Positions 1 through 8,392 of a stretch of DNA of 64,000 nt are shown here, in pieces. The notes beneath the pieces are model-generated. The model was not told the DNA's origin. It worked only from the letters and a program-made list of their open reading frames with translations, and ran no database searches. A program made the translations under genes and the position numbers. The stretch comes from Anaeromyxobacter diazotrophicus (GTDB lineage Bacteria; Myxococcota; Myxococcia; Myxococcales; Anaeromyxobacteraceae), in assembly GCF_013340205.1 (NCBI RefSeq), contig NZ_BJTG01000003.1, positions 1 through 64,000 on the forward strand. Reading direction: 5' to 3'. The stretch's first letter is position 1; the number at the start of each line of letters is the position of its first letter.

Positions 1-540
1 CGCCCCGGGCTGTAGGGCGGGGGCTCGTCCCCCGCCGCCGTCGACCTCGACGCAGCCCGCCTCGATCGGCTTCGCGAGCGCGGTCGCCGCCTGCTCCGGC
101 CTCGGCAGCCGCCGCAGCCCCTCCCGCGGCGCTGGCCGTGGCTGCAGCGACGCGACGAGCTGCTCCGTCTCCACCTTCGTCTTGTACGCGGCTCGACCGA
201 CGAGCTCCTCCCAGTTCCCTTCCGTGAGCACGGGAGAGAGCACAGCCGCGGTGGACAGGGAGAGGCGCCCGACGCGCAGCGGCTCCGCGAGCCCTGGGAA
301 TCGGCGCAGCACGCGCATGGCGGCGATGCGCCGACCGGCGGCGCCCTCGCTCAGGTGGAGGGCGCGGACGCACCACTCCCACAGGGAAGGATATCCGGCC
401 TCGACCCAGGCCCGGCGCTGGTCGAAGACGTCGAGGTGGAGCAGGAACTCGACCTGGGTGTGGCGCTCGTGGCCGGCCAGCTCGGCCAGGCGGTGGAGGA
501 GGGCGACGGTGTCGAGGGAAGCGGGCGCGGCATCGGGCAT
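1..540 (-). CDS. HNH endonuclease family protein, 5' part (runs off left edge)
   Basis: The N-terminal 180 codons of a gene that continues past the left edge. It starts at an ATG at 540 and reads MPDAAPASLDTVALLHRLAE. The helical N-terminal domain (about residues 1-125) is the one that precedes a C-terminal HNH nuclease domain in an Anaeromyxobacter family resembling DUF222/HNH proteins; a proline-rich hinge begins near residue 130. The HNH domain itself lies outside the window, so nuclease activity is inferred from the second copy at 7392-8392. Over the first 124 residues the two copies differ at only about six positions. The frame is open to the edge, so this copy may be the intact one. The family's biological role is unknown. 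Confidence 0.8.
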   Translation of the reverse strand, partial: MPDAAPASLDTVALLHRLAELAGHERHTQVEFLLHLDVFDQRRAWVEAGYPSLWEWCVRALHLSEGAAGRRIAAMRVLRRFPGLAEPLRVGRLSLSTAAVLSPVLTEGNWEELVGRAAYKTKVETEQLVASLQPRPAPREGLRRLPRPEQAATALAKPIEAGCVEVDGGGGRAPALQPGA

Positions 541-695
541 GGAGACCTCCAGTGCGTGTTCGCTGACGGTAACACGCACTTTTCGAGCCTCCGGGAAGGC
601 CCTGGTCGCCCCTCCTGCCCGCAGTCCGCCGGCCCGCCAAGCCCACCGACGGCCGCTGAGGCGCATGCCCTTCGGAGATGTGACTGATGATGAGC
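541..695. repeat. Inverted repeat, left copy (HNH upstream region)
   Basis: This stretch is the non-coding part of an inverted duplication. Positions 541-610 match the reverse complement of 7320-7391, and 611-695 match the reverse complement of 6910-6999 with few mismatches. Together with the adjoining HNH genes it places long inverted repeats on both sides of the sixA-treY-malQ-gluQ block. About 320 bp present in the right copy (7000-7319) are absent here. No gene is seen between 541 and 749 besides these repeats. Confidence 0.7.
552..579. promoter_or_regulatory. Palindrome upstream of left HNH gene
   Basis: Perfect 9-bp inverted repeat, GTGCGTGTT at 552-560 and AACACGCAC at 571-579, with a 10-nt spacer. 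It ends 11 nt before the ATG at 540 on the minus strand. The same palindrome with the same spacer sits 13 nt before the other HNH copy (7351-7378). Its position suggests an operator or an RNA hairpin controlling translation of the nuclease; this is inference. Confidence 0.55.
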
Positions 696-6904: not shown

Positions 6905-6909
6905 GCCGG

Positions 6910-6999
6910 GGCTCATCATTCATCACGTCTCGACGAGGGCATGCGTCTCAGCGGCCGTCGGTGGGCTTGGCGGGCCGGCGGACTGCGGGCAGAGAGGGG
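6910..6999. repeat. Inverted repeat, right copy, outer part
   Basis: Reverse-complement match to 611-695 at the other end of the glucan/trehalose block. It is separated from the HNH-proximal part of the repeat (7320-7391) by about 320 bp of unique sequence. Confidence 0.65.
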
Positions 7000-7319
7000 C
7001 GCGGCAGGATGAGAGGACGGGCCCGCGCTGGCGGCCCGGCCTCGGACGGCAGGCGCTCCACGCGCGGCGGAGCCGCGCGTCCGAGACGGTTGCGCGTGCC
7101 CGGCTCACGACGGTGCTCTGAGGGTGAACCATGGTGCGGCCGGCAGCGCACGCCCCAACGGTGAAATGCTTTCGCGCTTGACCGAGTCACAGCTGAATCA
7201 CGCGCGCGGCCCGGCAACGCAACAGGATCGCCCTCCAGCGCGCCGCGTCCTGGGCCTGCGAGGTGCTCGGCGCCGTCGAGGGCGAAGTCGGCGGGCACCT
7301 CACGAAGACGCGCGGGCGC
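7000..7319. other. 320-bp segment present only in the right HNH repeat
   Basis: This segment interrupts the right repeat copy relative to the left one. It is bounded by the 9-bp direct repeat GGGCGCGGC at 6997-7005 and 7314-7322. It contains a perfect hairpin at 7060-7080 (9-bp arms, 3-nt loop) nested inside a 6-bp outer pairing (CTCGGA 7041-7046 with TCCGAG 7080-7085). I see no convincing gene. It could be a small insertion, or sequence lost from the left copy. Confidence 0.5.
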
Positions 7320-7391
7320 GGCGACCAGGGCCTTCCCGGAGGCTCGAAGAGTGCGTGTTACCGTCAGCGAACACGCACCGGAGGTCTCTCC
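7320..7391. repeat. Inverted repeat, right copy, HNH-proximal part
   Basis: Reverse-complement match to 541-610, differing mainly by two extra bases near the start codon. It contains the shared palindrome at 7351-7378. Confidence 0.65.
7351..7378. promoter_or_regulatory. Palindrome upstream of right HNH copy
   Basis: Arms GTGCGTGTT (7351-7359) and AACACGCAC (7370-7378) with a 10-nt spacer, followed 13 nt later by the ATG at 7392. It has the same arms and spacing as the left copy. Possible operator, or a hairpin near the ribosome-binding site. Confidence 0.55.
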
Positions 7392-8392
7392 ATGCCCGAC
7401 GCCGCGCCGGCTTCCCTCGACACCGTCGCCCTCCTCCACCGCCTGGCCGAGCTGGCCGGCCACGAGCGCCACACCCAGGTCGAGTTCCTGCTCCACCTCG
7501 ACGTCTTCGACCAGCGCCGCGCTTGGGCCGAGGCCGGCTACCCCTCGCTGTGGGAGTGGTGCGTCCGCGCCCTCCACCTCAGCGAGGGGGCGGCGGGCCG
7601 GCGCATCGGCGCCATGCGCGTGCTGCGGCGGTTCCCAGGGCTCGCAGAGCCCCTGCGCGACGGGCGCCTCTCCCTGTCCACCGCCGCGGCGCTCGCGCCG
7701 GTGCTCACGGAGGGGAACTGGGAGGAGCTCGTCGGGCGAGCGGCGTACAAGACGAAGGCGGAGACGGAGCGCGCCGGGCCACGCTCGAGCCGGTCGATGT
7801 CGACAGCTACTCGCTGCGGGTCACCGTCGATGCCGAGCTGAAGAAGGACCTCGACCAGCTGAAGTCGCTCCTGGCCCACAAGGTCCGGAACGGCGACCTC
7901 GGCGCGCTCCTCCGGGAGGCGGTGAAGTGCGCGCTCGAGAAGCACGGCAAGCGCCGCGGAGCGGTGGAGCCCTCGCGGGCGCGGAAGAGCCCCGCGCCGG
8001 CGGAGAAGGCAGCTGCCGCCTGCGGCCAGCGCGAGCCCATCCCGGCCGCGGTGCAGCGCGAGGTCTGGAAGCGGGACGGTGGGCGCTGCGCCTGGTGCTC
8101 GGCGGACGGCCGCCGCTGCGAGAGTACCTGGATGCTGGAGCTCGACCACATCCAGCCTGTGGCGCTCGGCGGGCGCAGCACCGCCGACAACCTGAGACTG
8201 GTGTGCCGCACTCACAATTCGCTGCACGCCCAGCAGGTCTTCGGCAGGGAGCACATGGACCAGTTTTGGAATGATGCGGACCGGAGCGCTCCACCCACCG
8301 CCGCTGGCGGAAGCACTTTAGGGGCGTGCGGCGAGGGCGCGCAGATCGCTGGCCAGACGCCGACGCCGGGCCGGCGAGGTACCGGATCGTGA
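7392..8392 (+). pseudogene. HNH endonuclease family protein, frameshifted and internally deleted
   Basis: Second copy of the HNH gene. The N-terminal domain reads MPDAAPASLDTVALLHRLAE from 7392 to about 7770, where the frame breaks after AYKTKAETE. The remaining domain continues in another frame from about 7775 as LEPVDVDSYSLRVTVDAE to the stop at 8392. The hinge seen in the left copy is missing at the junction, so a deletion as well as a frameshift is likely. The HNH module is intact: WKRDGGRCAW, ELDHIQPVALGG, and NLRLVCRTHN. As read, a full-length protein cannot be made. A separate C-terminal product is conceivable but has no clear start signal. Positions 8393-8583 downstream hold no gene that I can see. 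Confidence 0.75.

Follow-up and report, generated by a model that had tools for sequence, protein, structure and literature searches.

Why should an identical palindrome stand directly before two HNH-family genes, one of which is already broken? We addressed this question in a 64,000-nt stretch of Anaeromyxobacter diazotrophicus DNA, referred to here as the window. A pattern search found two matches without mismatch to GTGCGTGTT-N10-AACACGCAC, at 552-579 and 7351-7378. Read in the gene sense, both copies are GTGCGTGTTACCGTCAGCGAACACGCAC, the 10-nt spacer being identical too. The left copy is followed by the 11 nt TGGAGGTCTCC and an ATG at 540 on the minus strand, and the right copy by the 13 nt CGGAGGTCTCTCC and an ATG at 7392, which confirms the preliminary description of a common 28-bp palindrome 11-13 nt before both HNH starts. 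Its statement that the right copy is already broken also holds, since in-frame stops and frame changes are present. A GTG inside the palindrome was rejected as a start codon because it is in frame for the left gene alone, being out of frame in the right gene (13 nt) and replaced by CTG in the paralogue L014. The features of the two sites are as follows.

1..540, minus strand: first 180 codons of the left DUF222-HNH gene, cut off by the contig end (DUF222 25.3 bits, cut-off 24.4)
546..550, minus strand: GGAGG, Shine-Dalgarno-like (sequence)
552..579, minus strand: 28-bp palindrome, left copy (pattern match)
559..559, minus strand: predicted transcription start (about +1) within the right arm (from hexamer-to-ATG spacing)
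563..602, minus strand: 40-nt promoter-like family motif, left copy (model match 565-602, E 1.4e-5)
566..571, minus strand: predicted −10 hexamer TACCGT, preceded by TGT (from the motif alignment and from paralogues whose hexamer lies 6 nt before the ATG)
7328..7367, plus strand: 40-nt promoter-like family motif, right copy (model match 7328-7365, E 7.3e-5)
7351..7378, plus strand: 28-bp palindrome, right copy (pattern match)
7359..7364, plus strand: predicted −10 hexamer TACCGT, preceded by TGT (from motif alignment and spacing)
7371..7371, plus strand: predicted transcription start (about +1) within the right arm (from hexamer-to-ATG spacing)
7380..7384, plus strand: GGAGG, Shine-Dalgarno-like (sequence)
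7392..8359, plus strand: right DUF222-HNH gene, broken by frame changes and in-frame stops (reading frames)

The two copies in the window are paralogues that share 92% identity over 462 nt and a run of about 100 identical bases nearby, so that the identity of the 28-mer is not independent evidence of selection. Inverted repeats as such are common in the window, which contains 270 pairs (arms of at least 9 nt within 20 nt, imperfect ones included). Both observations would suit a reading in which the left arm belongs to a promoter, the right arm is an accident of the lineage, and a functionless dyad is kept constant by recent duplication and perhaps by gene conversion. What is unusual is the position of the palindrome just 5′ of a start codon: the observed stem was reached in none of 400 shuffles of the 50 nt upstream of each window copy (L012 and L016). 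The mean number of palindrome-like patterns expected in shuffles was 0.01 with 3 mismatches allowed, for a pattern picked after it had been seen.

A separate repeat of about 97 nt starts some 30-50 nt upstream of the left palindrome (607-700). Its other copy, 90% identical and in the opposite orientation (6906-7001), precedes the right HNH copy, and a stretch similar to it precedes the truncated HNH copy L018. By its sequence it looks like a REP/MITE-type element that replaces the usual upstream region of the left HNH copy.

The genes belong to a multi-copy family. We found 32 family matches in the genome of the window (4.83 Mb in 17 contigs, family f1) and up to 45 in another (G006), counts that include fragments, some of them gene halves at contig ends. 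At least one match occurs in 22 of the 24 genomes of the family, and among named protein relatives the nearest that we found come from Anaeromyxobacter. The Pfam cut-off for DUF222 (24.4 bits) was exceeded by L014 (25.2 bits) as well as by the left window gene, and no match above it was reported for L013, L025, L031, L069 or L076. The HNH domain exceeded its cut-off of 21.4 bits in L013 (27.4 bits) and L014 (26.3 bits); the window fragment stops before this domain. Contigs of the assembly (G000) often break in or at HNH copies (C3:1, C3:580040, C4:5, C5:29, C6:3, C10:141054, C12:5 and C14:1), which makes the copy number uncertain. Two subfamilies were compared, whose identity is about 43% across the 136 aligned residues that come first (59/136 for L013 and L025). 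The C-termini of L025, L028, L029 and L030, tail included, are 68-80% identical to that of L013; for L026, L027 and L031 the figure is 40-64%, with at most 25% in the tail where present. The much greater likeness of the C-terminus than of the N-terminus in the first four suggests gene conversion between some subfamily-1 and subfamily-2 genes, a process that would also favour an accidental dyad held constant.

The preliminary description had suggested checking whether the palindrome occurs only upstream of HNH paralogues, and in a search of the whole genome it does. Six exact copies and two with one mismatch were found, and all eight sites precede starts of a single HNH subfamily (subfamily 1), including C5:29, which has just 16 coding bases before the contig end. 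No palindrome was found before subfamily-2 genes, intact ones included, or, at up to one mismatch, in the other 23 genomes of the family. Among 116 other genomes of the order, four had a single one-mismatch match, two of the four matches being the same sequence. That the site lies only beside the family's genes in this genome, together with the HNH domain and a putative DNA-binding domain in paralogues, would fit a palindrome that is recognised or cleaved by the HNH enzyme for spreading or converting copies. However, the upstream homology of the left copy ends about 50 nt away, at the separate repeat, and a nuclease with a target in its own gene copies would be expected to cut the chromosome. 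We therefore regard an enzyme target as very improbable.

We aligned nine subfamily-1 starts to compare the palindromes of intact and broken genes. The exact sequence precedes six of them, of which L016 and L019 are interrupted and L012, L020, L021 and C5:29 run off a contig end. Three subfamily-1 genes are full length (405, 412 and 415 residues), and each of them, L013, L014 and L015, has an altered palindrome. L013 carries one substitution in the right arm and L015 one outer substitution in the left arm; L014 shares the latter, has lost 3 nt of the spacer and carries an inner substitution in the right arm. The uninterrupted Watson-Crick stems left are 6 bp in L013, 8 bp in L015 and 7 bp in L014, and no arm change is matched by a compensating one, as would be expected of an accident. 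Loss of the palindrome in other intact paralogues, which had been named beforehand as evidence against a functional site, is thus largely what we observe, given the changes in all three and the lack of the palindrome in subfamily 2. The perfect dyad expected of an autoregulatory operator in intact paralogues is retained in none of L013, L014 and L015, and the deletion in L014 would rotate the half-sites, which counts against a dimer-binding site. Relatives whose proteins are 54-59% identical have no right arm, which again favours an accident. By sequence comparison, the dyad is a feature of the lineage, found only in subfamily 1 of this species.

The left arm appears to have a separate explanation. 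Upstream regions of HNH genes in family f1 have in common an ungapped 40-nt motif with the consensus GnGCGTnTCnGGAGGnCCnGAAAnCGCGTGnGACnnTnnG, and the gene-sense left arm of the left palindrome is part of its 3′ end. The motif was aligned over 75 upstreams, picked from the strongest HNH matches and not at random; three of them (L145, L159 and L169) were anchored wrongly. A sequence-only model (R1) built from 39 of the 75 sites gave 82 sites at E<0.02 in five genomes (G006 28, G003 22, G000 19, G001 7 and G011 6). All 82 precede HNH genes or remnants, as established by comparison of coordinates with individual reading of doubtful cases; several precede HNH matches without an N-terminus, and G006:508461, G011:303490 and G000:C5:42 were judged by a short remnant or a start alone. 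Since the 82 include 25 training sites and further sites that resemble these, the informative part of this result is the absence of other genes. The first matches without an HNH gene had E values of 0.033 (L218), 0.048 (L219), 0.049 (L226), 0.147 (L227) and 0.164 (L228). A wider regulon was considered and rejected, no non-HNH gene standing clearly above chance with R1 in the five genomes.

In 15 further genomes, R1 matches at E<0.02 occurred, by genome, in family f1 only. The f1 genomes G017 and G019, which have no HNH match, gave no R1 match either, and eight genomes of other families gave no clear match (best E 0.064, G069). Outside the R1 scans, the upstream of L257 from family f7 (G059) is similar by eye, with GGAG...GAAACGCGTGTTAAT, so that confinement of the motif to f1 is not strict. 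The 40-nt module is, on this evidence, apparently common to most examined family members in Anaeromyxobacteraceae, and a promoter-like element of the family would explain the left arm.

The 3′ end of the motif, TGN-[GT]ANNN[T], resembles the extended −10 consensus. The match is a loose one, because many subfamily-1 relatives (the subfamily-1 genes of G005, G006 and G009) have the hexamer TACGAA, in which the final T is missing. We tallied the distance from hexamer to ATG in 87 upstreams (L169/L296, L185 and C5:29 were left out), of which 85 could be classified, L300 and L302 being without the motif. Precisely 6 nt separate hexamer and ATG in 36 of the 85; three have 7 nt and 43 have 18-27 nt. 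The remaining three, which the tally includes, were mis-set by the script (L130 and L163 at 8 nt, L146 at 2 nt). Among the 36 at 6 nt, 29 carry the GGAG/GAAA motif and seven TGTCRG. With this fixed spacing the ATG would coincide with +1, the arrangement of leaderless genes. The window copies are not of the leaderless kind, having 25 and 27 nt between the predicted hexamer and the ATG, with a GGAGG. If the same spacing sets their start, +1 would be the right arm's second A, the left arm would lie at about −20 to −12 and the right arm at roughly −1 to +8 of the predicted RNA, which would begin ACACGCAC. The left arm would then be the extended −10 region (GCGTGTT-ACNNT) of the promoter-like module, and we consider it quite probable that it is part of the promoter of the HNH family.

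A hairpin that masks the ribosome-binding site in the normal mRNA, as had been suggested for the palindrome, is disfavoured by this placement. RNA folding predicts a 10-bp stem if both arms are transcribed; however, with the start predicted within the right arm, the left arm would be missing from the gene's own mRNA, so that a hairpin there is unlikely. Moreover, the stem of the window copy stops just short of GGAGG, leaving it unpaired in the centroid structure. We hold such a hairpin to be highly unlikely.

It is also conceivable that the dyad acts on read-through. RNA initiated outside would contain both arms and fold by the ribosome-binding site, whereas the gene's own RNA, starting in the right arm, would be free; fold-back inhibition of read-through RNA operates in some insertion sequences (IS10). 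In line with such a mechanism, the inverted repeat straddles the predicted start, and the inner arm substitutions of L013 and L014 keep G-U pairing on the sense strand, L014 still folding. Furthermore, in related leadered subfamily-1 clades, which lack the right arm, different inverted repeats lie around the ribosome-binding site, of 6-7 bp in G006 and mostly needing G-U pairs in G009 and G005. Against it, the stem does not sequester the ribosome-binding site in the window copy, as it ends before the unpaired GGAGG, and the fold of the palindrome region is not better than that of shuffles (z −0.28). In addition, the arms carry indels in G005, L014 and L015 no longer form the outer pair, and no significant repeat is present in the leadered genes L153, L155, L180 and L297. 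The chance that the dyad serves fold-back seems to us slim.

The rate of change bears on whether the right arm is an accident. On a tree of eight subfamily-1 copies (without C5:29), Fitch counts gave two changes at nine sites in the left arm and the same in the right, nine at ten in the spacer (including three gap columns from the one deletion in L014) and five at 11 in the leader TGGAGGTCTCC. The 27 nt before the palindrome had ten changes, the 65 sites further upstream 73, and the 29 four-fold codon sites 34. Per site, this amounts to 0.22 in the arms, 0.45 in the leader, 1.12 upstream and 1.17 at four-fold sites. The rate in both arms is thus about one fifth of that at four-fold sites, and both are constrained in this genome. 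As the adjoining leader is slow too, part of the slowness of the arms may stem from constraint on the promoter and the ribosome site and not from symmetry. The spacer is uneven: its first five bases, ACCGT, which are part of the predicted hexamer, differ in L013 only, and the five beside the right arm vary. We also shuffled the 50 nt before the ATG in seven copies (without L020 and C5:29). The Watson-Crick stem was reached in at most 0.5% of shuffles for L012, L015, L016, L019 and L021, 1.5% for L014 and 10.5% for L013; among 20 other upstreams (18 short leaders together with L180 and L297) one fell below 5% (L171, 3.7%), and L181 gave 7%. Both the slow right arm, compared with four-fold sites, and the rarity of such stems in five of the seven copies argue against a functionless dyad, which on balance we find unlikely.

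If the dyad is bound by a protein, the product of the gene itself is a candidate. We examined an AlphaFold2 model of L069, a relative from A. terrae (mean pLDDT 67, pTM 0.39), in which the N-terminus, with residues 31-130, is at a pLDDT of about 90. This N-terminal domain is helical, and among solved structures it is best matched by the DNA-binding domains of Spo0J/ParB and Noc, KorB scoring below these. Foldseek gave probabilities of up to 0.99 with weak E values (0.16-0.4 in the best rows, none below 0.001). With VIA, residues ~9-136 gave Z 10.3 for 4umk_C (rmsd 3.6, 114 aligned), 10.1 for 6y93_B (rmsd 2.6, 114/116) and 7.4 for KorB. Raf1 structures reached up to Z 9.1, and helical bundles readily give middling Z, so that the likeness of the predicted fold to the ParB/Noc/KorB DNA-binding domain is only a lead. 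The likeness extends over residues ~9-136 of the relative; the HNH proteins differ in their C-terminal nuclease and have 6-16% sequence identity to the matched chains. Since palindromes are bound by proteins of this fold, an operator through which the gene regulates itself is plausible. Unlike the sites of ParB and Noc, which are compact palindromes, the half-sites here are 19 bp apart. Residues 213-260 of the model, before the HNH domain, gave a weak match to the ribbon-helix-helix protein NikR (VIA Z 4.7 over 44 residues), and this stretch is a possible second DNA-binding module.

Taken together, the palindrome may represent a core-promoter and start-site segment of the multi-copy DUF222-HNH family to which a species-specific mirror half has been added, a reading that we put at an even chance. 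The completed dyad would be an operator over −10/+1 that keeps many copies quiet, and its best candidate ligand would be the gene's own product, acting through the predicted ParB/Noc/KorB-like N-terminus. The idea of an operator for a self-regulating nuclease, raised in the preliminary description, therefore survives in part: sites confined to the family, slow arms and the predicted N-terminus speak for it, and the altered palindromes of intact paralogues and the promoter element in the left arm against it. We lean slightly against the complete dyad being a protein-binding operator, which stays putative, and consider its recognition by the gene's own protein a tentative candidate with the chances clearly against it. 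A more far-reaching proposal would make the DUF222-HNH proteins self-recognising, damage-linked elements. The ParB/KorB-like domain would bind a site in the family's own promoters, one protein would control dozens of dispersed copies, and the HNH domain would nick or cut at the copies and so drive gene conversion, the palindrome being a recently perfected site. This we offer as a long shot.

A link to DNA damage is suggested by the relatives. Some HNH-family genes in family f7 and in the f1 genera g4 and g6 are preceded by TGTCRG-N10-[GT]ANNNT-N6-ATG, often over the same GCGTG core. This pattern had 54 matches in 16 chosen genomes, with none for the reversed control. Of 30 loci inspected, ten, including L323 with no Pfam match, led to an HNH relative (blastp 1e-4), two to recN-like genes (L309 by its RecF/RecN/SMC domain, L311 by eye), three to Y1/RAYT-like transposases (L306 by Pfam, L324 and L334 by eye) and 15 to other or unclear frames. 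A possible leaderless PafBC-type promoter, TGTCRG-N10-TANNNT-N6-ATG, precedes recN-like and transposase genes in another myxobacterial family (G059, G051, G045 and G053). Some g6 upstreams of HNH genes (L298 and L301) have GGAAA or CGAAAA directly 5′ of a TGTCAGACC box, as if one promoter type had been turned into the other through a short insertion.

The PafBC or RecA-NDp motif is given in a passage of PMC8151990 as TGTCGG or TGTCAG-N10-TA-N3-T. The box of the relatives has the same spacing and sits at the same place; the window copies differ in having GGAG...GAAA in place of TGTCRG, and the TGTCRG-N10-TANNNT box is absent upstream of them. The genome of the window has two adjacent WCX-domain matches, both with a WYL domain and one with a PafC HTH (96.6 bits), which by their domains form a PafB/PafC-like pair. 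According to part of PMC9705874, Myxococcus xanthus has pafBC, and PafBC sequences occur in promoters of LexA-affected genes. Literature searches on RecA-NDp in Myxococcota, on HNH endonucleases in Anaeromyxobacter and on the 13E12 repeat with mitomycin found nothing related, HNH is not mentioned in PMC12288472, and no paper on DUF222 function was found by title and abstract start. From the boxes, a DNA-damage link is likely for the relatives that carry TGTCRG and possible for the window genes, which themselves lack it: since relatives have a PafBC-type box over the same core, the window promoter may be of the DNA-damage type.

Multi-copy DUF222-HNH genes are a puzzle, and the promoter module described here is restricted to this family in the scanned genomes. 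Together with its replacement in relatives by a PafBC-type box and with the predicted ParB/KorB-like N-terminus, it leads to a testable proposal, a damage-induced family whose protein would read its own promoters. The closest parallel is found in mycobacteria, where DUF222-HNH proteins go by the name 13E12. REP13E12, HNH and DUF222 are grouped together in a passage of PMC10589994, and part of PMC13061034 describes REP13E12 as a conversion hotspot with 14 annotated genes and the REP13E12 regions of M. tuberculosis as having no defined biological function. In the same species five putative HNH endonucleases are mitomycin-induced in a RecA-dependent manner, their 13E12 identity being unstated in the part of PMC8151990 concerned. 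Like 13E12/REP13E12, the window family combines DUF222 and HNH domains, has many copies per genome and bears signs of gene conversion; unlike it, the family is myxobacterial, its DUF222 matches fall just over or under the cut-off, and it has a 40-nt upstream module of its own.
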